This document shows positions 4,611 through 47,785 of a stretch of DNA of 64,000 bases, in pieces (position 1 is the stretch's first letter; each line of letters starts with the position of its first letter). This DNA is from a bacterium BMS3Abin02 (GTDB lineage Bacteria > Actinomycetota > Acidimicrobiia > Spongiisociales > UBA4744). A program made the position numbers and the translations under genes. The notes under the pieces were generated by a model that was not told the DNA's origin, did not search any database, and saw only the letters and a list, made by a program, of their open reading frames with translations. Location of the stretch: NCBI GenBank assembly GCA_002897675.1, contig BDSU01000008.1, positions 1 through 64,000 of the forward strand, in the 5' to 3' direction.

Positions 4611-5254
4611 AACGCCGAACCATCCTGATGCTCTCGGCTGCTGCCGTCGCTGTCGCTGTCGCCGTCACGGTCTCGGCCACCACCCTGCTGAGATCCGATC
4701 CCGTCGTCGCCGAGGCCAACGGCGTGGCGATTCACCGCTCCGAGTTGGACCGGAGGCTCTCGAGCCTCACCTCGATGCACGGCGGAACCGCCACGGAACC
4801 TGGGCAGTGGAGTGAGATGGCCCTTCAATCACTCGTCGACGACATCATCCTCGAACAGGAGGCCGAACGCACCGGCATCGACGTGTCCACAAAGGACGTG
4901 AACGCGGATTTCGACTCCATGCGAAGCAGGTTCGCTTCCCGCAAGGAGTTCGAAGCCTGGATGGAGGAACTCGGACTCGACCGGAGGGAGCTGAAACGCC
5001 GCATCAGGCTGCAGCTCGTGGGATCGGCCGTGTTCGCGCACATCGTGAAGGACGTCGCCGTGTCCGACGACGAGCTGGCGACGTACTACGAGGCGCACAA
5101 GGACGAATACGAGAACCGGCCGCTACTCGAAGTGCGGACGGACCTTCGCGACAAGCTCGAGAAGACCAAGAAGGAAGAAGCCTACCGTTCCTGGCTGGAG
5201 GAGCAACGAGCCTCCGTCGTGCTCGTCCGGTATGACGAGGAGGGCCGGCCGTGA
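4607..5254 (+). CDS. SurA/PrsA-like periplasmic chaperone without PPIase domain
   Basis: 215 codons from the GTG at 4607, with AAGGAG upstream. An N-terminal signal or anchor segment (AAAVAVAVAVTVSATTLL) is followed by a SurA_N-like helical domain: VAEANGVAIHRSELDRRL, then LVDDIILEQEAERTGI and a helix-rich tail ending ETAR-like in a coiled coil. The parvulin catalytic domain normally found in SurA/PrsA is absent. Embedded among multihaem cytochromes, it is likely a dedicated folding or haem-maturation helper acting outside the membrane; this role is inferred from context. It overlaps both neighbours by four bases. Confidence 0.7.
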   Translation: MKRRTILMLSAAAVAVAVAVTVSATTLLRSDPVVAEANGVAIHRSELDRRLSSLTSMHGGTATEPGQWSEMALQSLVDDIILEQEAERTGIDVSTKDVNADFDSMRSRFASRKEFEAWMEELGLDRRELKRRIRLQLVGSAVFAHIVKDVAVSDDELATYYEAHKDEYENRPLLEVRTDLRDKLEKTKKEEAYRSWLEEQRASVVLVRYDEEGRP

Positions 5255-37963: not shown

Positions 37964-38119
37964 TCACACCTCCTTGGTAACGCCCTGAACATTCGGATGG
38001 CTGAGGTCGAGGGCGGCGTGAAAGTGCTGAGGCTCTGACGGGACCTGGAGGCAATTCGGACATCGTCTCGACGAAGGGCGGATAGACATGAACACCTGTG
38101 AACACAAGGCGTTTCGCAA
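37964..38119. other. Spacer between the HNH relic and the island
   Basis: About 150 bases with no credible gene. It is the chromosomal flank left of the duplicated tRNA end. Confidence 0.5.
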
Positions 38120-38168
38120 GCTCCGGGGGTGAGACTCGAACTCACAACCTGCGGATTAACAGTCCGTT
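38120..38168. repeat. Left attachment repeat (orphan tRNA-Asn 3' part)
   Basis: 49 bases identical to 47737-47785, beginning GCTCCGGGGGTGAGACTCGA and ending AACAGTCCGTT. It covers the T arm, variable loop and the anticodon arm of tRNA-Asn but lacks the rest, so it is no tRNA gene. It marks the left junction of the island. Confidence 0.9.
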
Positions 38169-39461: not shown

Positions 39462-39984
39462 CTAATAGTTCTGGTTCGGCGATGTGGCGGAGATCAGGTG
39501 GAAGTACCCCCATTCGCCGCCCCATGGTTCCCAATACGTGCCGTACGCGACGGTGTGAAACGTCTGCAAGCCTGAGGGGTTCGAACAGAGGACAGCACCC
39601 ACACCGAACAGGTACGTCGATGAGCCGCTGTAGTACATGCCTGTGGTCCCGCAGTCGTATCCATCACTGTCAACGACGGTTGAATTCTGCGCGGTTCGCG
39701 CCGGTTGAATTCTGCGCGGTTTAGCGGTTGTCCACGTACGTACCCGAGTACGGACCGCTTGTTCGCCCGAACACGTAGTCAGAGCTCGCCGTAGCAAATA
39801 CCGGTAGGGCAAGCAAGAGAACCAGGGCCGCAACAACGAGACCGACAACAAGCGCCGGACGAACTGGATCGAGTCGCCCGGAATCTCTGCGCCCTACCGC
39901 TTCTGCCGCTCGGAGCCCACGGTCGCTGCGGACAAGGCCACTGCGATCTGGGCTTCTCACGAAGAACTTGACCACCGTTCTCAC
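39462..39984 (-). pseudogene. Secreted protein gene broken by stop and 25-bp duplication
   Basis: The 5' part from the GTG at 39984 (AAAGGAAG upstream) encodes a basic head, a helix PALVVGLVVAALVLLLALPVF and TASSDYVFGRTSGPYSG before TAA at 39721-39723. The 3' part continues in another frame as NSTVVDSDGYDCGTTGMYYSG through HLISATSPNQNY. Removing one copy of the 25-bp direct repeat at 39677-39721 brings both parts into one frame, leaving only the TAA. So an originally single secreted protein of about 165 residues was inactivated; the short 87-residue product may still be made. Confidence 0.65.
39677..39721. repeat. Tandem 20-bp repeat with 25-bp period
   Basis: CGGTTGAATTCTGCGCGGTT occurs at 39677-39696 and 39702-39721, separated by CGCGC. 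The 25-bp duplication shifts the frame of the host gene by one. Confidence 0.9.
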
Positions 39985-40020: not shown

Positions 40021-40260
40021 TGGGAGACCCATGAACCCTCCTGACGTAGGCACCAATCGGAGTTCAGCTCCTGCCGGCGGGAGGTGACCTCCGCTGACAG
40101 CAGCTGTCGATACCAAGGCTCGACTTCGACGCTCTCCGGTATCTCATCCCCTATGTGTCCGGACGGGACGATTCGTTTCACCCGGACGGCGACTTCCTCA
40201 ACTCGGCCGGTCGGGTTCCCCGGCTGTCGGCGGCCCCGCCAGTTCGAGGGCCTCGATGAA
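40021..40260. repeat. Copy 1 of a 220-bp dispersed island repeat
   Basis: This segment is clearly similar to 42421-42640, and its right half to 44170-44310. Shared blocks include the GTGACCTCCGC...CAGCAGCTGTCGAT block, the GACTTCGACGCTCTC block, the promoter motif and the tail of the HTH genes (TCGGGTTCCC-GGCTGTCGGCG). The repeat comprises an HTH gene end, the promoter, a conserved roughly 110-base leader and the AGGAGGG-ATGGGTCTC start of a secreted gene, so it looks like a duplicated expression cassette. Confidence 0.75.
40154..40179 (-). promoter_or_regulatory. Island promoter motif R1
   Basis: On the minus strand GAAACG, 12 bases, CGGACACA, upstream of the secreted gene at 39984. It is one of five copies (see 42558, 44189, 44574, 44605). 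GAAAC fits the -35 element of ECF sigma promoters. Confidence 0.6.
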
Positions 40261-40473
40261 TACAGGCCCGGCTACCGGTGAGGCGGCGACGTCGACCCAG
40301 CCCATCTGGCCGGCGAGTGCGAGGGCGGCGCGGGGGTGGTCGACTCCGAGACGGTGCGTGAGTTCCCGGATGAGGCGGCGGGTGTGGCGTTCGGATCGGC
40401 CGATCCACCGGGCGACGGCGCCCATAGTGGGTCCGTCGAGGACATCGGCATCGAGTTCGTAGGACTCCGACAC
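40198..40473 (-). CDS. LuxR-type HTH mini-regulator, copy 1
   Basis: 91 residues from the GTG at 40473. The core TMGAVARWIGRSERHTRRLIRELTHRLGVDHPRAALALAGQMGW is a GerE/LuxR-like four-helix HTH with the expected recognition helix (RSERHTRRLIREL). No receiver or sensor domain is present. It is strongly similar to the protein at 44311-44541 but has a different C-terminal tail, probably after a frameshift in one copy. It begins seven bases after the end of the lipoprotein gene and its 3' end overlaps the R1 repeat. Confidence 0.7.
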   Translation of the reverse strand: MSESYELDADVLDGPTMGAVARWIGRSERHTRRLIRELTHRLGVDHPRAALALAGQMGWVDVAASPVAGPVFIEALELAGPPTAGEPDRPS

Positions 40474-40479
40474 CAGCTC

Positions 40480-41064
40480 TCACACCCTATCTTCGTCGAT
40501 GTCGACACATCCGAAGCTCGAACCCGTGCGGCCGACGACGGTGACGTCCAACCCCAGGCCCAGGTCCACCCACGGTTCCCTCTCGAATCGCAGCACCGTC
40601 CCGGCAAAGCGGATCGGTCCTCCCGTCGGACCGCCGACCAGCAACTCGGCCACCCCGTCGGCGTCGACGTCCATCGGGAACACCTCGGCCGGCTTGTTGA
40701 CGTCCCCCACCTGGAACGGTTCGACCGTCAGACCGGTGCCACACACCGCGATCGTCGTCTCCCCGATGGCAGGCCGGTCCACCGCGATCGTCTCGGGCCG
40801 ACCGTCCCCGTCCAGGTCGTTCTCGAATCTCGGACTCCACGGATGCGTCTTCTCGGGGCAAACGATCGTGCCGTCGGCGAGGGTCACGACGGAGGTGACC
40901 TTGGGCACCGTCGTCGATATTGAAGACATCGACGTGGGAGGCCCAGTGGACGTCGGCGCCGTGGACGAACCCGTCACGGAGATCTCCACCGTCGAAGACA
41001 CCGACGAGGCCCCGACGGTCGCACACCCGCCAACCAGAACGGCACCGGCGAGCACCCGCCCCAA
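40480..41064 (-). CDS. Lipoprotein with DGDG (FG-GAP/VCBS-like) motifs
   Basis: 194 residues from a TTG; a GTG nine bases further in is also possible. Lipobox LAGAVLVGGC near the start, then a Ser/Thr linker, then ENDLDGDGRPETIAVD and FPMDVDADGVAELLVGG, which look like calcium-binding loops of FG-GAP propeller repeats. Four Cys could form disulfides outside the cell. It is located in a minus-strand run with the metzincin and lipoprotein genes, 31 bases after the latter. Function unknown. Confidence 0.65.
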   Translation of the reverse strand: MGRVLAGAVLVGGCATVGASSVSSTVEISVTGSSTAPTSTGPPTSMSSISTTVPKVTSVVTLADGTIVCPEKTHPWSPRFENDLDGDGRPETIAVDRPAIGETTIAVCGTGLTVEPFQVGDVNKPAEVFPMDVDADGVAELLVGGPTGGPIRFAGTVLRFEREPWVDLGLGLDVTVVGRTGSSFGCVDIDEDRV

Positions 41065-41095
41065 GAGATGAGGTGCGTGGGCTACCGTCGATGCG

Positions 41096-41845
41096 TCAGG
41101 GCGATGCAGTGGTTATGACTTCTCGTACCTGCTCGAGAGATGCCGAGAATACATCGGAAGTAGCTGTGGGCCTTTCTTCGCCATCTGAGCCCACAACCGG
41201 TTGCTTGTCTTGGATGCTCTCGCCCTTTCGCAGGCTCGTCACGGCAGGCGATCGTGCTGTGACCTCGTTTGCGTCGTTGACGTCGAACACGCCGTTGTCC
41301 GAGCTCAGTGGGGAGAACACCTGCTTCAGCGGGCGAATTGCCGGCACTTCGTCTGCAGATACACGGTCGAGGAACAGCAACAGTCGCTGTCCACTCTTGA
41401 TGTCACTCTGTTCGTCGACGATGAGCTTGTCGGTGTCGAACAGGCTTACATAGAACGTGGCGCCCTCGATGTACCCGTTCGGGTCGAAAAGGATGTCATC
41501 CACAGAGAATTCCCGATACACCATGGGAATCCCACTGCCGGGGTTCGCAGGATCACCTTCGACCGCCCGATGGGCGGTATCACCCGCGGTTGCGACGACA
41601 ATGACGTCGGCGGCTGCGGCCAGTTCCTCAACCGACGAGTACTCGGCGTACGACCCGGAGAGACGAATCCGAACAGTGGGTTCGGCCGAGGATGAGCCGG
41701 GTTCGACCGAGGATGAGGCGGGTTCGACCGAGGATGAGGCGGGTTCGACCGAGGATGATGAGCAGGAGGTCATCACGACCGCAAGGCTCAACATCACGAC
41801 CGCAAACAACCAGATGTGAGATTGACGGCTTCGAGTGTATGTCAT
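41096..41845 (-). CDS. Lipoprotein with SSSVEPA repeats
   Basis: 249 residues from the ATG at 41845, preceded by GAAGGGGGA. Signal with lipobox VVMTSC; the mature start is a repeat linker, SSSVEPA three times and variants, coded by 21-bp tandem repeats. The folded part (YAEYSSVEELAAAADVIVVATAGDTAHRA ... REFSVDDILFDPNGYIEGATFYV ... GQRLLLFLDR) resembles small beta-barrel lipoproteins of unknown role with an LLFL strand. It lies 14 bases after the metzincin gene and thus in its operon under promoter R2. Confidence 0.7.
   Translation of the reverse strand: MTYTRSRQSHIWLFAVVMLSLAVVMTSCSSSSVEPASSSVEPASSSVEPGSSSAEPTVRIRLSGSYAEYSSVEELAAAADVIVVATAGDTAHRAVEGDPANPGSGIPMVYREFSVDDILFDPNGYIEGATFYVSLFDTDKLIVDEQSDIKSGQRLLLFLDRVSADEVPAIRPLKQVFSPLSSDNGVFDVNDANEVTARSPAVTSLRKGESIQDKQPVVGSDGEERPTATSDVFSASLEQVREVITTASP
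41679..41762. repeat. 21-bp tandem repeats, four units
   Basis: GGGTTCGACCGAGGATGAGGC-like units repeat four times without a break in frame and encode the SSSVEPA linker of the lipoprotein at 41096-41845. Copy number could vary by slippage without disrupting the frame. Confidence 0.85.
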
Positions 41846-41859
41846 GTTTTCCCCCTTCA

Positions 41860-42435
41860 TCAGTACACCGCATTGACTCCGTTGACGTCGTTTGGATATG
41901 GAGCCCATGGATCTCCGCAGTTGTCATAGACCCAGGTTGGATCGCTTCGCATCACTGGTCTATTGGTGCCACAGCCGAGAGAAGAGTGCGCGAGACCATA
42001 GGCATGACCCAACTCGTGAGTCGCGACCAGAAACTTCTCAGTGGCTGACAAGCTATCCGCGGTACGATTGTTGAAGGTGATGGTAACCAACTCGTTGTAC
42101 CACACCTGGCCGCCACCAGAATCACAACCTCCCTGGGCCAGCCCCCACCACGTTGACGAAGACCAGTAGTCTTGAACCTTGATATTCGGAGTATCGTCCG
42201 AAGGCGTATAGGTGAAGTAGCCCGGCGCGCTCGTAGCATCCCATTCGTTCTGGCCCGAATTGAACGCGGACTGCCATATGCTGGATAGCGAGTAGTAGCG
42301 GTATCCGATAGCCGGATTGGTGCCTGCATACTTGCAGCCATTCAATACCCACGCGTTGGCAGGAGGACCAGGAAGCACCATGAACGCCAAGACGAACGCG
42401 GAGAGCCCATAACTGATTCGTCGTGCGAGACCCAT
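41860..42435 (-). CDS. Secreted metzincin-type zinc metalloprotease
   Basis: 191 residues from the ATG at 42435, which has AGGAGGG upstream. Signal peptide about residues 1-29 ending PPANA. The zinc site HELGHAYGLAHSS (HExxHxxGxxH) lies near residue 143, and VMRS 15 residues later may be the Met-turn, both typical of metzincins related to matrixins. Conserved WNGC- and C-containing loops suggest disulfides. No propeptide or further domain is present, so the enzyme is minimal. It is the first gene after promoter R2, followed by two lipoprotein genes. Confidence 0.82.
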   Translation of the reverse strand: MGLARRISYGLSAFVLAFMVLPGPPANAWVLNGCKYAGTNPAIGYRYYSLSSIWQSAFNSGQNEWDATSAPGYFTYTPSDDTPNIKVQDYWSSSTWWGLAQGGCDSGGGQVWYNELVTITFNNRTADSLSATEKFLVATHELGHAYGLAHSSLGCGTNRPVMRSDPTWVYDNCGDPWAPYPNDVNGVNAVY

Positions 42436-42640
42436 GAACCCTCCTGGTGTAGGCAATAGTCGGAGTTCAGTTCCCTGCTGGCTGGAGGTGACCTCCGCCA
42501 ACAGCAGCTGTCGATGCCAAAACTCGACTTCGACGCTCTCTGGCATCTCATCCCTTATGTGTCCGGATGGGACCGATTCGTTTCACCCGGACGGCGACTT
42601 CTTCCCGCTCGGCTAATCGGGTTCCCTGCTGTCGGCGCCC
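42421..42640. repeat. Copy 2 of the 220-bp dispersed island repeat
   Basis: Similar to 40021-40260 in the promoter, the leader with CAGCAGCTGTCGATGCC, and the AGGAGGG-ATGGGTCTC start. No HTH gene is left on its right side, but a short GGGTTCCCTGCTGTCGGCG block of the HTH gene end is still recognisable. This and the space up to 42753 hold no separate gene. Confidence 0.7.
42558..42584 (-). promoter_or_regulatory. Island promoter motif R2
   Basis: On the minus strand GAAACG, 13 bases, CGGACACA, followed by TAAGGGATGAG. It lies about 120 bases upstream of the metzincin start and should drive metzincin and the two lipoprotein genes. Confidence 0.6.
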
Positions 42641-42753
42641 TCGCCGGCGCCAGCACTCGAAACCCCAACCGGCTAGAAAGGACAACAACGAGGTCGACGC
42701 GGCATCACTCATACACCATGCCGCCCGTCGTGACCGTCGCGGGCTCCGAACGG

Positions 42754-43209
42754 TCACGAGTGTGCGGTTCTGAAGGGTGGAAGCAAAAGGGCAAGCTGTT
42801 GTGCGGCGATGCCTCCTTCGGTTTCGGGGCTGATGTCCAGGACTCTCGTTTGGTAGGTGTCGAGGAGCGTAAGGTTGTCGCACTTGAGTTCTTCGGCTCG
42901 TTGCGCAATGGCGTCGGTTCGCTGGCGGTACTGTTGCTGTACCTCCACCGCAGCCGGTGTAGCCATGTCGAAGTCTGACTGCGTGAGATCGGCGCCGGCG
43001 TCAATGAGTTGTTGTGCCGAAGCAACGGCCACGTCGACGAGCCGGTCGCACGAACGCACCGACTGCGGATCTGTGGACACACCTCCCTGACAGGCTGCCG
43101 CCACCAGGGTCATCCCCAGCACCGGCAGCAGTATGCGCCTGAGCCACGCCGGGACGCCGCCGACACTGTGCGGTGTCGGCAGCAGCCCATGGATGCGTGC
43201 AGTGGCCAT
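42754..43209 (-). CDS. Small lipoprotein of unknown function
   Basis: 151 residues. The start at 43209 forms TGATG with the preceding stop and has AGGAC upstream. Signal with lipobox TLVAAAC near residue 40, unusually far from the start, preceded by a long n-region (MATARIHGLLPTPHSVGGVP). The mature part is helical (LVDVAVASAQQLIDAG, QQQYRQRTDAIAQRAEELK) with three cysteines. It is translated together with the secreted protein at 43209-43628. Family not recognised. Confidence 0.6.
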   Translation of the reverse strand: MATARIHGLLPTPHSVGGVPAWLRRILLPVLGMTLVAAACQGGVSTDPQSVRSCDRLVDVAVASAQQLIDAGADLTQSDFDMATPAAVEVQQQYRQRTDAIAQRAEELKCDNLTLLDTYQTRVLDISPETEGGIAAQQLALLLPPFRTAHS

Positions 43210-43628
43210 CAGCGTCCTGTGGCCCGGTAGACGCTCTCGACGAGACGCTTGTACTGCTGGTCGCAGGTGTCGTAGGCGGCGTCCATCGGCGCCATCGCGT
43301 CTTCGGCTGTGACCGCCTGCGGGTCCCCTGGGTTCAAGACCGTGATCACGAATCCGGCCTCTCCAGATACCTCATCGGCCCGGGCGTCGTATCCTGCCGC
43401 TTCGAGACAGCTGACCGTCGCCCGCACGGCCTGTCCATACTCGCTGACCGTGACCTTGCCGTCGGCGAGGATCGCTGCTTGCGATTCCAGCCCTTCCTGC
43501 GCGGCAGCAGACGCCAGAGCGGCGACCTGCTGCTCGCTGACACCTGACGGCTGGGCCGCGATGCCTGCTGCCGCGGACAGAACCACGAGCAACGCCACAC
43601 TGGCGACTATCAGGGTCGTCATCTTCAT
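43209..43628 (-). CDS. Secreted protein of unknown function
   Basis: 139 residues from MKMTTLIVASVALLVVLSAA (ATG at 43628; an ATG at 43646 is also open). The signal peptide ends near GIAAQ. The mature part is helical with two Cys (TVSCLEAAGYDARADEV and YDTCDQQYKRLVESVY). The CLEAAGYD...C layout resembles small actinobacterial exported proteins of unknown role with one disulfide. It lies 49 bases after the stop-interrupted gene and probably under promoter R3. Confidence 0.65.
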   Translation of the reverse strand: MKMTTLIVASVALLVVLSAAAGIAAQPSGVSEQQVAALASAAAQEGLESQAAILADGKVTVSEYGQAVRATVSCLEAAGYDARADEVSGEAGFVITVLNPGDPQAVTAEDAMAPMDAAYDTCDQQYKRLVESVYRATGR

Positions 43629-43677
43629 GTCCTGGATCCTCTCCATTCTCCATCACATCGCTGCATGTCGAGTTCTT

Positions 43678-44073
43678 TCACTGACCCCAGTACCAACCCG
43701 TGATACTTGGGTTCGGCTCGCCGGAGCAATCGTTGTTCGGATCGTCGCAGTAGCTTGCCCGTCCGTAGTTGGCAACGATCACATTCCACGACTTGTATGC
43801 TCGGGACTGCCATCCGTCCCAGTAGCCGTACGTTGTCGCGTACGGGTACTACCACCAATAGGTGTGGTAGTACCCGGCGGACACATCCTTGGCCTGCACC
43901 TGCCAGCAGCTGATCGGGATACTGTCGATCGCCAGCGAGAACGTTTCGTCATACCCAAGTTCGACCTCGAAGTCGCAGGTAGAACCAGATCCGACCACCG
44001 TCGCCTCGGCGAACTGGGCAAATCCGATGGTCATCAATCCAATCAGCGTTACCACCGCCATGACCTTCCGCAT
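43678..44073 (-). pseudogene. Secreted protein gene with in-frame TAG
   Basis: From the ATG at 44073 (AAGGGG upstream) a signal peptide (MRKVMAVVTLIGLMTIGFAQFAEA-type) and a Cys-containing beta domain are read up to GYYHTYWW, then TAG at 43849-43851. The same frame continues coherently for 56 codons (YPYATTYGYWDGWQSRAYKS, SYCDDPNNDCSGEPN) to TGA at 43678. The amber codon is within a palindrome. Either it is a recent nonsense mutation or the codon is read through; readthrough is less likely but testable. Confidence 0.65.
43844..43875. repeat. Inverted repeat containing the amber codon
   Basis: GGGTACTACCA (43844-43854) and TGGTAGTACCC (43865-43875) form a perfect 11-bp inverted repeat with a ten-base loop. 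The TAG of the secreted gene lies in the left arm. Template switching at such a palindrome would be one way to create the mutation. Confidence 0.8.
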
Positions 44074-44188
44074 GCTGCGCCCCTTTCGTCGTGCTGCTGT
44101 CATCCCCTAGCTCGTCGAGCGAGTCTGGTTCCCGGGACGTTTGGGCCGCCTCATCTCATGCTCCTCCTCTGGTCGCGTTCATCCCGTA

Positions 44189-44215
44189 TGTGTCCAGATG
44201 CGATCGGTTCGTTTC
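44189..44215 (-). promoter_or_regulatory. Island promoter motif R3
   Basis: On the minus strand GAAACG, 13 bases, TGGACACA (one change from the others), followed by TACGGGATGA. It lies about 115 bases upstream of the secreted gene at 44073 and just after the end of the HTH gene at 44311-44541, the same order as around R1. The space 44104-44310 holds no other gene. Confidence 0.55.
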
Positions 44216-44310
44216 ACGGCATCGCCGGCTCTCGTTCCCGCTCGGCCAATCGGGTTCCCCGGCTGTCGGCGGCCTCGCCGGTTTGAGGGCCTCGATGATT
44301 TCAGGCTCGG

Positions 44311-44541
44311 TTACCGGCGACGCGCGACGTCGACCCACCCCATCTGGCCGGCGAGTGCAACGGCAGCGCGAGGGTGGTCGACTCCGAGACGGTGCGTGAG
44401 TGCCCGGACGAGGCGCCGAGTGTGTCGTTCGGATCGGCCGATCCGTCGGGCAACGGCGCCCATGGTAGGTTCGTCGACGAGGGCTTGGAGGAGCTCTCGT
44501 TCGGCTGCGCTGAGCCTGCTGGTGGTGTCGTGGTACAGCAC
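44311..44541 (-). CDS. LuxR-type HTH mini-regulator, copy 2
   Basis: 76 residues from the GTG at 44541, which has GGGGAGG seven bases upstream. The protein LSAAERELLQALVDEPTMGA plus RRIGRSERHTRRLVRALTHR and GVDHPRAAVALAGQMGW is a free-standing GerE/LuxR HTH. It is a paralogue of the protein at 40198-40473. A copy of the island promoter motif (44574-44600) lies directly upstream, back to back with the one for the inhibitor gene. It could tune the ECF regulon. Confidence 0.75.
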   Translation of the reverse strand: MLYHDTTSRLSAAERELLQALVDEPTMGAVARRIGRSERHTRRLVRALTHRLGVDHPRAAVALAGQMGWVDVARRR

Positions 44542-44573
44542 GGTTTGCCTCCCCTTTCCTGCCGTACCCCTGT

Positions 44574-44600
44574 TGTGTCCGGATGGGTGGTGCTCGTTTC
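44574..44600 (-). promoter_or_regulatory. Island promoter motif R4b
   Basis: Minus strand: GAAACG, 13 bases, CGGACACA, followed by ACAGGGG. It stands 33 bases before the GTG of the HTH gene at 44541. It is divergent to R4a; the two -35 elements are only four bases apart. Confidence 0.55.
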
Positions 44601-44604
44601 GGAT

Positions 44605-44630
44605 GAAACGCTCGGCCGTTTCCGGACACA
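44605..44630 (+). promoter_or_regulatory. Island promoter motif R4a
   Basis: Plus strand: GAAACG, 12 bases, CGGACACA, followed by TACGGGACGA. It lies 47 bases before the ATG of the I36-like gene and is the only copy facing right, toward the inhibitor and the ECF sigma gene, which suggests autoregulation. Confidence 0.6.
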
Positions 44631-44677: not shown

Positions 44678-45262
44678 ATGTTCAAGCGCCGACTGACAGC
44701 ACTGATGGTTGTCGTTGCGATCGGGTGGCTTGCCCTGGCGGCGGGAGCGACTGGCGCTGCACGAGCTGAGCAACCCGCCGACAGCACGGAGCCGGTCGGA
44801 CAGGTAGCTGTCTTCGAGGGTTCGACGATCGATCTGGCTCGAGGGTGGGGCGACGCCCATGCCTGTGCGATCTGGGAAGACCGTGTTGCCGAGTGTTTCC
44901 GTACCGAGGCGGAACTCGAGGCGTGGCTCGCAGGACTCATGTCGCCAGCACAGGAGACGAGCGAGAAGTCTGTCACGACGGCGGCGACGGCATGCTCGTC
45001 GGCGCTGAGGCTGTATGACGGCGTCGGCTACAGCGGGGACGTCCTGTACCTGTGGAGTCGAGGATCGTGGATCGACCTGTGGGACGTCGGGTTCGCCAAT
45101 CGGACCTCGTCGTACAAGATCGGGGCCTGCTCGTCGTACTTTGCCGACTATCCAGGCGGCGGGGGCGACTGGTACCCGACGAGCCTGACGTCGGCGTACC
45201 TGTGGTCGTCGTCGATGCTGTCAGGCTGGGACAACCGGGTGTCGTCGGTGTACCTGCGATAG
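44678..45262 (+). CDS. Secreted peptidase inhibitor I36-like protein
   Basis: 194 residues from the ATG at 44678 with AGGAGG upstream. A signal peptide (about residues 1-31, ending in GAARAEQ) is followed by an acidic spacer with one disulfide candidate and then a beta/gamma-crystallin-like domain: ALRLYDGVGYSGDVLYLWSR, WDVGFANRTSSYKIGACSSYFADY and NRVSSVYLR. This layout is that of the I36 family; its founding member SMPI from Streptomyces inhibits metalloproteases. The neighbouring metzincin is an obvious possible target, but that is inference. Confidence 0.75.
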   Translation: MFKRRLTALMVVVAIGWLALAAGATGAARAEQPADSTEPVGQVAVFEGSTIDLARGWGDAHACAIWEDRVAECFRTEAELEAWLAGLMSPAQETSEKSVTTAATACSSALRLYDGVGYSGDVLYLWSRGSWIDLWDVGFANRTSSYKIGACSSYFADYPGGGGDWYPTSLTSAYLWSSSMLSGWDNRVSSVYLR

Positions 45263-45342: not shown

Positions 45343-45966
45343 ATGGCACCGGAGGAGGCTGCGGAGCGGTTCACCCGCCTGTATGCGGCGACGTACGCCG
45401 ACGTGCTGGCGTATGCGCTCCGTCGGACGACCAGCCGCCAAGATGCCGAGGATGTGGTCTCCGCCACCTATTTGACGGCGTGGCGGCGTCTCGACGACGT
45501 TGCCGACGCGCGAGTTCCGCTGGCCTGGCTGTACCGGGTCGCCGCGGGACATCTTGCCAACCAGCGCCGCAGCGGCGGACGGTTTGCCGCCCTCCGGATC
45601 CGCCTCTTCTCAGTCCCGGTGCCGCAACGGTCCAACAATCCAGCTGACGCCGCCGTCGCTGAGGCCGACGCCGCCTTGGTGCTGGCCGCGTTGGCGACCC
45701 TGTCTGCCGGCGATCAGGAACTGCTGCGACTCACCGCATTCGAAGGGCTTTCCCCTGCCGACATCGCCGCCGCGTGGGGTGTCCCCTCCCGCCTCGTCAG
45801 AGTGCGGCTGCATCGAGCGCGCCGTCGTCTCGAGGCGGCCCTCGATCGGCAGGCCGGTGGATCCAGTATGAAACGAACGTCCCCTGGTGGACACAATGAG
45901 ATGAGGACTTCACCATCGGGCGCTTCGCCCGACAACGATCGAGAAGACGATGAACGACCGACCTGA
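45343..45966 (+). CDS. ECF-type RNA polymerase sigma factor
   Basis: 207 residues from the ATG at 45343. Region 2 (about residues 9-50: RFTRLYAATYADVLAYALRR, DAEDVVSATYLTAWRRL) and region 4 (about 112-165: LATLSAGDQELLRLTAFEGL, ADIAAAWGVPSRLVRVRLHR) are complete. Regions 1 and 3 are absent, as in ECF factors. A roughly 40-residue Ser/Asp-rich tail is extra. The next gene starts within its end and encodes a single-pass membrane protein, probably its anti-sigma. I infer it reads the five GAAACG/CGGACACA motifs on the island. Confidence 0.88.
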   Translation: MAPEEAAERFTRLYAATYADVLAYALRRTTSRQDAEDVVSATYLTAWRRLDDVADARVPLAWLYRVAAGHLANQRRSGGRFAALRIRLFSVPVPQRSNNPADAAVAEADAALVLAALATLSAGDQELLRLTAFEGLSPADIAAAWGVPSRLVRVRLHRARRRLEAALDRQAGGSSMKRTSPGGHNEMRTSPSGASPDNDREDDERPT

Positions 45967-46678
45967 CGCCTTCGAACGGCTCCGAGCCGCCAACCCGGTC
46001 GACCCGGCCACGGTCGACGGCCCCGACTCGCCACGAGCCCAGCAGTTGCTGGCGTCGATCCTCGCCACCCAACGCACCCCAGAGGTCGCCGTCGTCCGGC
46101 GTCACCGCCGGCCGCTCGTCATCGTCGTCGCCCTTGTCGCCATCCTGGGCGGAGCAGCCACCTGGATCATCACCCGACCCGTCACCAGCCCCGTCACCGT
46201 CTCCTGCTACGCCCAACCGGCCCTGCACGGCACCCAGGCCGGTCTGGTCGGTGTTCCCCTCGATGTGAAATCGTGCGCTCCCTATTGGGAGGACGGGACC
46301 CTCACCAGCCCCGACTACCCGCCCGGCGTGGTGCCTCCTCTCGTCGCGTGCGTCACCGACGTTGGCACCTTCGCCGTCTTCCCCTCCAACAACCCCAACC
46401 TGTGTGAAACCCTCGGCCTCGCCCCACCGGAGCCGCAGTCGATCGAAGAGGCCAAACCGACCCTCGACCTCGACCACGCGATCTCCGAGTACTTCGCCAC
46501 CAGCCGGTGCATCCCGATCCCCCAGGCAGTAAGCGACGTCCGTAGGATCCTCGACGAGCACGGAGCGGCCGACTGGACGGTCACCGTCGGCGAACAACGC
46601 CCCGACCGGCCCTGCGCCAGCCTCTCCTTCGAACCGAAGAGTCACACCGTCCGGATCGTCCCCATCCCAGAGCCCTGA
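45950..46678 (+). CDS. Single-pass membrane protein, probable anti-sigma partner
   Basis: 242 residues; its ATG overlaps the sigma gene end by 17 bases, so the two are coupled. A cytoplasmic part of about 50 residues (NDRPDAFERLRAANPVDPAT) is followed by one helix (about 55-75, PLVIVVALVAILGGAATWII) and an outside domain with six Cys. The cytoplasmic part lacks the HxxxCxxC zinc motif of common anti-sigmas. The position and topology are those of actinobacterial ECF partners; a role as sensor and inhibitor is inferred. Confidence 0.7.
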   Translation: MNDRPDAFERLRAANPVDPATVDGPDSPRAQQLLASILATQRTPEVAVVRRHRRPLVIVVALVAILGGAATWIITRPVTSPVTVSCYAQPALHGTQAGLVGVPLDVKSCAPYWEDGTLTSPDYPPGVVPPLVACVTDVGTFAVFPSNNPNLCETLGLAPPEPQSIEEAKPTLDLDHAISEYFATSRCIPIPQAVSDVRRILDEHGAADWTVTVGEQRPDRPCASLSFEPKSHTVRIVPIPEP

Positions 46679-46731: not shown

Positions 46732-47721
46732 GTGAATCTCCCCGCTCGGGAACCCAAACGGCGCCCCGACCGGCTGCGACTACCAGTCGGCACTCACATG
46801 GCCGCCATCGGCGAGGGTTCCGGCCTCTCCGTCGACGGACCGCCACACAACACGCCCGTCTGCATACGCAATGATCAGATAGGCGCCGGACGGGTCGATG
46901 CTCTGATCGACCACCGACCCGTCATAGGCGACCTCGTCGACGACCTCACCGGAGGCCACGTCCACCACCTCGCCGCCATCCTGGAACAGGCCGTCGACGA
47001 TGGCCTCATCGGCCGCAACCCCGCCCGCCGCACCGAACTCCCCCGAGCTACCGAGCCCGAGCGCCGCTACCTGACCGCCAAACAGGTCACCCGCCTCGCC
47101 GAAGCCATGCCCACCCGCCAACACGCCACCATGGTGTACGTCCTCGCCTACGGGGGACTCCGCTGGGGAGAACTCGTAGCATTACGCCGTGGTCGAGTGG
47201 ATTCTCTCCGTCGCACGCTCCAGATAGCACAGTCTGCGACGGAAGTCGCCGGGTACCTCGAGTTCGGAACGACAAGGACCCATCAGTCGCGAATCGTGCA
47301 CCTTCCGGCCTTTGTTTCCGAGTTGCTGGGCCGGCATCTGGAGGACATCGAAGACAAGCCGGAAGCATTCGTGTTCCCCGCCCCGCGCGGAGGGCCACTG
47401 AGGTACCCGAACATGAGAAAGGCTGTCTGGGATCGTGCGCGCGACCAGGCCGAAGGGGATCTCGCTGATATCACACCCCATGATCTCCGCCACACCTGCG
47501 CATCCCTCATGCGGGCTACCGGCGCCGACGTCAAAGCCATCCAACAACAACTCGGACATCGCAACGCCACCATCACCCTGAACACCTACACCCACCTCTT
47601 CGAAGGTGACCTGGCGGCCGTGATGGACCGTCTCGACACCAAAACCGCGTCCAAAACGCGTCCTGAGCGCGTCCTGCGCGAGGTCGTCGACCTTCCTCAG
47701 CAAGCACAAAACCCCCGCTGA
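46732..47721 (+). CDS. Tyrosine recombinase/integrase with damaged N-terminus
   Basis: 329 residues. The catalytic domain is complete: Arg in YGGLRWGEL, His and Arg in HDLRHTCASLMR, LGH, and Tyr in TLNTYTHLF. Only the end of the core-binding domain is recognisable (HHLAAILEQAVDDGLIGRNPARR, from about residue 77). The first 75 residues do not resemble an integrase, and on the opposite strand the same DNA reads like a beta-propeller protein. I conclude a deletion joined the integrase to foreign DNA, so the protein is probably not functional. The 3' end abuts tRNA-Asn, its attachment site. Confidence 0.75.
   Translation: MNLPAREPKRRPDRLRLPVGTHMAAIGEGSGLSVDGPPHNTPVCIRNDQIGAGRVDALIDHRPVIGDLVDDLTGGHVHHLAAILEQAVDDGLIGRNPARRTELPRATEPERRYLTAKQVTRLAEAMPTRQHATMVYVLAYGGLRWGELVALRRGRVDSLRRTLQIAQSATEVAGYLEFGTTRTHQSRIVHLPAFVSELLGRHLEDIEDKPEAFVFPAPRGGPLRYPNMRKAVWDRARDQAEGDLADITPHDLRHTCASLMRATGADVKAIQQQLGHRNATITLNTYTHLFEGDLAAVMDRLDTKTASKTRPERVLREVVDLPQQAQNPR
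46780..46968 (-). pseudogene. Beta-propeller protein 3' fragment opposite the integrase start
   Basis: In minus-strand frame the residues VVDVASGEVVDEVAYDGSVV, DQSIDPSGAYLIIAYADGRV and VWRSVDGEAGTLADGGHV look like a WD40/TolB-type blade and end at a stop at 46780. Upstream of about 46968 the frame loses this character where the integrase coding begins. So it is the orphan end of a propeller gene, joined to the integrase by deletion. Confidence 0.45.
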
Positions 47722-47734
47722 CTAGGGGTTTTGT
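47706..47734. terminator. Terminator after the integrase
   Basis: ACAAAACCCC (47706-47715), nine-base loop, GGGGTTTTGT (47725-47734): a perfect ten-base stem rich in A and T at the base, working in both directions. It contains the integrase stop and lies two bases from the att repeat, so it can also end tRNA-Asn transcripts. Confidence 0.75.
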
Positions 47735-47736
47735 TG

Positions 47737-47785
47737 GCTCCGGGGGTGAGACTCGAACTCACAACCTGCGGATTAACAGTCCGTT
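47737..47785. repeat. Right attachment repeat
   Basis: Identical to 38120-38168 over 49 bases. It overlaps the 3' part of the intact tRNA-Asn gene, which is therefore kept functional after integration. Confidence 0.9.

Follow-up and report, generated by a model that had tools for sequence, protein, structure and literature searches.

The Island and Its Promoter-Like Sites

We analysed a stretch of 64,000 nucleotides from the Acidimicrobiia bacterium BMS3Abin02 (contig BDSU01000008.1 of assembly GCA_002897675.1, positions 1 to 64,000 of the forward strand; hereafter the window), which contains an element of about 9.6 kb integrated at a tRNA-Asn gene. The element carries a gene for an extracytoplasmic function (ECF) sigma factor and several copies of a bipartite motif, and we asked how the two are related. 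From left to right it consists of an attachment copy, broken and intact secreted-protein genes, a metzincin gene with a lipoprotein-like gene, a helix-turn-helix (HTH) gene, an I36-like gene, the ECF gene, a membrane-protein gene, an integrase gene, and the tRNA-Asn. The genes on which the analysis centres are:

41860–42435, minus strand: secreted metzincin (HELGHAYGLAH; Pfam Matrixin, 3.4e-5)
44311–44541, minus strand: HTH mini-regulator (weak HTH matches in the window copy; LuxR/GerE type in a longer relative from L054, which matches GerE at 9.5e-8)
44678–45262, plus strand: secreted I36-like or beta-gamma-crystallin-like protein, the first gene of the sigma operon
45343–45966, plus strand: ECF sigma factor (Pfam Sigma70_r2, 3e-10, and Sigma70_r4_2, 1e-11; TIGR02937, 1e-19)
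45950–46678, plus strand: single-pass membrane protein, a probable anti-sigma factor, its start overlapping the ECF stop by 17 bp

The window and the whole genome (2.5 Mb) were searched with the strict pattern GAAACG-N11..14-GGACACA. Six exact matches were found in the window compared to 0.01 expected by chance, a number never reached in shuffles, and the two boxes of the window sites were separated by 12 or 13 bases. A preliminary description of this DNA had listed five copies with this spacing, at 40154, 42558, 44189, 44574, and 44605, one of them reading TGGACACA, and each was found at its position; the copy at 45870–45895 on the plus strand is additional to that list. The sites are:

40154–40179, minus strand: site 1, GAAACGAATCGTCCCGTCCGGACACA; the GTG start of a broken secreted gene lies 170 bp downstream; within a duplicated block
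42558–42584, minus strand: site 2, upstream of the metzincin gene (ATG 123 bp downstream); a duplicate of site 1
44189–44215, minus strand: site 3, TGGACACA; upstream of a broken secreted gene (86 bp or more); shares the duplicated block of site 1
44574–44600, minus strand: site 4, 33 bp before the GTG start of the HTH mini-regulator gene; arranged back to back with site 5
44605–44630, plus strand: site 5, upstream of the I36-like, ECF, and membrane-protein genes (ATG 48 bp downstream)
45870–45895, plus strand: site 6, GAAACG-N12-TGGACACA; in the last part (3′ end) of the ECF gene, 55 bp upstream of the start of the membrane-protein gene (45950)

It had been noted that the sites precede genes of the island, and the distances listed above, from 33 bp (HTH) to 170 bp (a broken gene), bear this out. 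The TAnGGG-like block reported to follow the motif is present in most copies, but not at 44574, which has AACAGGG, nor at 45870, which has AATGAGATGA. No sigma-70-like promoter was found in the island, including next to the sites, and no terminator-like site was found between the I36-like gene and the ECF gene. The possibility that GGACAC is itself a −35 box was rejected, as there is no conserved element 16–18 bases downstream of it, whereas the box preceding it by exactly 12 bases is conserved.

In the genome as a whole, there were seven strict matches, six of them in the window, and a control with the reversed pattern gave none. The seventh match, on contig C45, falls in an open frame of 545 codons and probably arose by chance. 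A looser pattern (BGGACA) added a variant, GAAACG-N12-TGGACATA, at the equivalent position of another ECF/membrane-protein module of this genome, and the remaining looser GAAACG matches all lie in long open coding frames. The genome-wide search that the preliminary description had proposed is in its favour, showing strict sites confined to the island, coding-frame matches aside, together with the variant in the second module. This module (G000:C7:1-1772, L047) encodes an ECF and a membrane protein of 79% and 83% identity to those of the window, and its neighbours are an integrase relative and a tRNA-Met; contig C7 starts within an I36-like gene that is 97% identical to that of the window.

Conservation of the Sites in Related Genomes

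Of the 138 genomes of the order, 10 encode the membrane protein; a profile search extended this to 31 of the 395 genomes of the class, with about nine of them recognised through the N-terminal part alone. The named records among these are metagenome-assembled genomes of Acidimicrobiia and other Actinomycetota. The recurring arrangement is a LuxR-type HTH gene divergent from an I36-like secreted-protein gene, which is followed by the ECF gene and then by the gene for the single-pass membrane protein. Upstream of the I36-like, HTH, and membrane-protein genes of the module there is a bipartite site (identified by eye and by script) of the form (GAAACG or GCGAYR)-N12/13-(C/T)GGACAC.

This was quantitatively evaluated in lineages outside the clade of the window, counting the strict form G..A(C/T)(A/G)-N12/13-(C/T)GGACAC within 150 bp of a gene. 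A site was found upstream of the I36-like gene in 9 of 11 independent loci, the HTH gene in 5 of 5, and the membrane-protein gene in 5 of 10, compared to 0.01–0.02 in shuffles. The spacing peaks at 12, with 13 once and a few stray values, and the spacer sequence is variable, whereas both boxes are conserved. The sites precede orthologous genes even in lineages in which the ECF proteins are only 37–50% identical, and the position of site 6 is matched in the C7 copy of the window's own genome and in G012, G001, G005, G012b, and G076b. It had also been proposed to check in related genomes whether the site goes with the sigma gene; the density of GCGAYR-type sites was found to be 2.69 per Mb in genomes with the module and 0.99 per Mb in those without it (2.7-fold, p = 0.005; reversed control, p = 0.21).

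The conservation bears on the possibility that the copies are functionless remnants of segmental duplication. The sites at 40154, 42558, and 44189 fall in blocks duplicated at 85–97% identity (repeat families D1 and D4, with a duplication spacing of about 4038, and D2, D6, and D8, with a spacing of about 2404), so that three of the five copies reported originally are in duplicated DNA, and two of these precede broken genes. However, sites 4, 5, and 6 lie outside the duplicated block, and the presence of the same sites before orthologous genes whose proteins are 37–50% identical refutes this explanation for them; overall, we regard it as extremely improbable.

An alternative interpretation of the motif is that it serves as an operator for the small LuxR/GerE-type HTH protein, or for another activator, with transcription by a housekeeping sigma factor. 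The HTH gene is divergent from the I36-like gene at most loci and is itself preceded by the motif, and another contig of G005 has paired HTH copies with two sites each. Yet the motif is kept at loci whose surroundings yielded no HTH gene (L050, L055, L105, and L115), it resembles a promoter in being directional and bipartite, with a spacing of 12/13 and a location 40–80 bp before gene starts, and a search beside the sites revealed no sigma-70-type promoter. We consider an operator function quite improbable and interpret the sites as promoters.

The hexamers of sites 4 and 5 are separated by 4 bp, and this back-to-back layout is kept in G012. The corresponding hexamers are 2 bp apart or overlap in G005 and G076, and the gap is 11–18 bp in G001, G119, and G108. 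In the G005 contig with the paired HTH genes (L024:1551-1637 and 4684-4764), each of the two genes has tandem sites, one of the GAAACG type and one of the GCGATG type, as if readable by two sigma factors, and a metzincin gene and a lipoprotein-like gene lie between them. In G020 (L050:8275-11599), two ECF/membrane-protein pairs are divergent, and a single I36-like gene and a single site separate the pairs.

Covariation of the First Box with the Sigma Factor

The protein encoded at 45343 contains Sigma70_r2 at residues 13–80 and Sigma70_r4_2 at residues 112–163, joined by a short linker, has no region 1 or 3, and matches TIGR02937 above the cut-off. The older hallmark of ECF promoters is a −35 element with AAC and a −10 element with CGT (PMC8103513); here, GAAACG has AAC, GCGAYR does not, and the −10 block is CGGACAC. 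The assignment to the ECF family stands despite this mismatch because the current definition relies on domains only (PMC8103513). Viral contigs were searched, and no relative of this sigma factor was found in them.

The sigma factors of the window, the C7 module, and one G012 module (G012a) form one clade with 100/99 support, the only grouping that we used from the sigma tree, and the first box is GAAACG in all three. In most other lineages, the first box is GCGACG, GCGATG, or GCGACA (GCGAYR). Genome G012 holds both types of module, with GAAACG at all four sites on contig C109 and GCGAYR at all three sites on contig C91. Of all the evidence, this covariation between the first box and the sigma lineage argues most strongly for recognition of the sites by the sigma factor of the same module, and it leads us to infer that the island sigma factor reads those of the island. 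The recognition-helix region reads VRV in the GAAACG clade and VRS or VRT in most others, a difference that amounts to one evolutionary event and proves little.

The same observations are relevant to the idea that the sites, although ECF promoters, are used mainly by a different host ECF and that the island sigma factor is incidental. The genome has 13 ECF-like matches, and a GCGACG-type site before a secreted-protein gene on contig C1 has no obvious cognate sigma factor in the genome. Against this, coding-frame matches aside, the GAAACG-type sites of the genome are restricted to its two modules with sigma factors of this clade, and the type of box tracks the module's own sigma factor even inside one genome. 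Reading mainly by another ECF thus appears quite improbable, and we favour the island sigma factor.

The site on contig C1 (G000:C1:453; L196:453, plus strand) lies 203 bp before the small secreted-protein gene, in a genome in which both known modules are of the GAAACG type, and near-identical sites are present in the congener G001 (contigs C2 and C34). In G052 (L025:5391-5456), a gene for a distant ECF (31% identity) has a GCGACG-type site 65 bp and a GAAACG-type site 29 bp upstream, and a small secreted-protein gene is divergent from it.

The Membrane Protein as a Probable Anti-Sigma Factor

The preliminary description had read the protein at 45343 as an ECF factor, which is supported here, and had overlooked the probable anti-sigma factor next to it. 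The membrane protein adjoins the ECF in nearly all loci. Class I anti-sigma factors have a profile-detectable domain of about four helices, whereas no significant Pfam match was obtained for this protein, and its predicted model has only two short inner helices (residues 7–13 and 28–39, with moderate to low confidence), followed by a membrane helix at residues 54–75 and a confidently folded outer domain that contains conserved cysteines. In all six loci examined in which the N-terminal part alone was found, it stands beside other ECFs, and in the five of these that are readable throughout, the outer domains are unlike that of the window protein. The membrane protein is likely, on the basis of this architecture and its position, to act as an anti-sigma factor.

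The Predicted Regulon

To define targets, further sites on the contigs that carry a module, and sites on a small number of additional contigs, were each assigned the next gene, using the best start within 260 bp. Outside of the HTH, I36-like, and membrane-protein set, 16 of 17 targets have a signal-peptide-like N terminus; among reading frames taken as background, this was the case for 43 of 210 (p = 1e-9). The targets include the metzincin of the window, many small secreted proteins without a family, a trypsin-like protein (L057) just below the cut-off, and, outside the module, an I36 inhibitor (L051; G119) above the cut-off of Pfam PF03995. The earlier proposal that the island ECF drives a private regulon of exported proteins thus agrees with the export-like nature of the targets and with the covariation with the module; it needs to be amended in that regulators are also included and that the system extends far beyond the island. 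The secreted proteases and I36-like proteins suggest a role in extracellular proteolysis or its control.

A Model of the Circuit

Taken together, these results make it highly likely that the island carries an autoregulated ECF/anti-sigma circuit, in which the ECF at 45343 reads the six sites as promoters, the anti-sigma factor has an extra promoter of its own, and the targets are exported. In the proposed model, GAAACG would be the −35 element and CGGACAC(A) the −10 region, the CAC of which follows GAAAC at a distance of 17–18 bases, roughly the position of ECF −10 cores. The membrane protein would hold the sigma factor until a putative cell-surface signal frees it. The sigma gene has no site directly upstream and comes after the I36-like gene, and it would therefore be transcribed from the 44605 promoter, such that the freed sigma factor would activate its own operon. 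The anti-sigma gene would be transcribed also from the sigma-dependent promoter at 45870 inside the sigma gene, providing a built-in brake. The small HTH regulator would be driven from the back-to-back promoter at 44574, and because divergent −35 boxes at most 4 bp apart would be too close for two polymerases, transcription should proceed in one direction at a time (in the window, G012, G005, and G076). The remaining sites would turn on exported proteins, namely the metzincin and small secreted proteins, and the whole set would be carried on the element integrated at tRNA-Asn.

Several observations weigh against this interpretation. The sites at 40154, 42558, and 44189 are copies of one promoter rather than three independent finds, which leaves about four independent sites in the window (the duplicated one, 44574, 44605, and 45870); the duplicates weaken the argument from the number of sites, but not the main case, because the comparative evidence leaves them out. 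The −10 block CGGACAC differs from the usual CGT. A clear site is missing at the membrane-protein gene in half of the independent loci, the strict pattern missed two I36 loci, and no site was found upstream of the module genes in more distant members of the class (L106 and L109–L112). As for the membrane protein, its relatives match the NCBIfam anti-sigma and CU044_5270 models weakly, below the curated cut-offs only, and a Foldseek search with it gave no usable fold match. The signal-peptide and gene-start calls came from crude scripts.

A more speculative extension, which we put forward tentatively, is that there is a mobile family of such cassettes in Acidimicrobiia, in which the CGGACAC −10 block is fixed and a swapped −35 word (GCGAYR to GAAACG) would insulate co-resident cassettes from each other, while overlapping back-to-back promoters would let either the operon of the secreted protein and sigma factor or the HTH gene be expressed, but not both at once.

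Other Features of the Island

The ends of the element and its remaining genes are as follows:

38104–38168: left attachment copy, 65 nt, 91% identical to 47721–47785 (repeat family D7)
39721–39984, minus strand: broken secreted gene, the frame lost near a short repeat
40198–40473, minus strand: second, divergent copy of the HTH gene (75% identity)
41096–41845, minus strand: lipoprotein-like gene after the metzincin gene, with N-terminal similarity to a gene beside the metzincin in G005
43849–44073, minus strand: secreted gene truncated by an in-frame stop, seen in the sequence and open reading frame
46732–47721, plus strand: tyrosine-recombinase-type integrase, identified from its sequence; a relative adjoins the second module of the genome
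47735–47810, minus strand: tRNA-Asn, the right attachment side

A tRNA-Asn and an integrase remnant are also present on the G012 contig. At positions 39680–39725, GGTTGAATTCTGCGCGGTT occurs twice as a short direct repeat, at the point of frame loss in the secreted gene that follows site 1. The lipoprotein-like gene is possibly on the same transcript as the metzincin gene, and it contains at least three direct repeats of 21 bp (positions 41678–41758) that encode an SSVEPAS-type repeat. Two neighbouring secreted-protein-like genes on the minus strand at 42754–43628 have no site of their own.

The fold of the I36-like protein looks like that of a beta/gamma-crystallin: the top Foldseek matches were all beta/gamma crystallins, with a match probability of 0.99 but an E value of 0.04. 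The window protein had no match to Pfam PF03995, falling below the cut-off, and its relatives matched I36 and Crystall weakly (0.07 at best for I36). PDB profile searches with the I36-like protein and with the membrane protein gave no matches.

Comparison with Known Systems

ECF circuits with self-transcription are known as a kind, about 100 ECF groups have been noted as unstudied (PMC8103513), and the group of this sigma factor may already carry a number. In a literature search that covered few subscription journals, we found no paper on the motif together with an ECF, on ECFs of Acidimicrobiia, or on CU044_5270. Because the same arrangement recurs in distant relatives, the circuit is apparently real, and it is apparently undescribed so far. 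From sequence alone, the analysis predicts the promoter code of a sigma lineage whose class is largely uncultured, together with the logic of its operon and a defined regulon of secreted proteins. That related sigma factors naturally differ in the −35 word, and that a single genome can hold both types, offers a ready case for the study of the sigma-DNA recognition code and of orthogonal switches, and the island would be a mobile element that supplies its own sigma factor for a programme of exported proteins (proteases and I36-like proteins).

The RpoE-RseA and SigW-RsiW pairs (reviewed in PMC8103513) resemble the system described here in having a two-domain sigma factor (regions 2 and 4), an adjacent single-pass membrane partner, self-transcription (predicted here), and a −35 element that contains AAC. 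In contrast to these pairs, the −10 block here is CGGACAC and not CGT, the sigma gene lies behind a secreted-protein gene, the predicted promoter of the anti-sigma gene is inside the sigma gene, and the carrier is a tRNA-targeted element. Class II anti-sigma factors such as CnrY have a two-helix inner domain that wraps around the sigma factor (PMC7406223), and the two short inner helices predicted before the one membrane helix are reminiscent of the CnrH-CnrY pair of Cupriavidus; in a comparison of the sigma alignment with solved structures, CnrH was one of the best matches, whereas the outer domain and the targets differ. ECF41, which has a fused C-terminal control domain and the promoter TGTCACA-N16-CGTC (PMC3426412), likewise has a conserved group-specific promoter upstream of its sigma and partner genes across phyla, but the partner here is a membrane protein, and the promoter sequence differs. 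As for the CU044_5270 family (NCBIfam NF038083), 9 of 12 relatives of the membrane protein match it weakly (best 1.2e-5), whereas the window protein, at 12.7 bits, is far from the cut-off of 100 and is not a member by that test. Relative to these systems, the departures of the island circuit are the CGGACAC −10 block, the natural change of the −35 word, the location of the proposed brake promoter within the sigma gene, and the mobile carrier.

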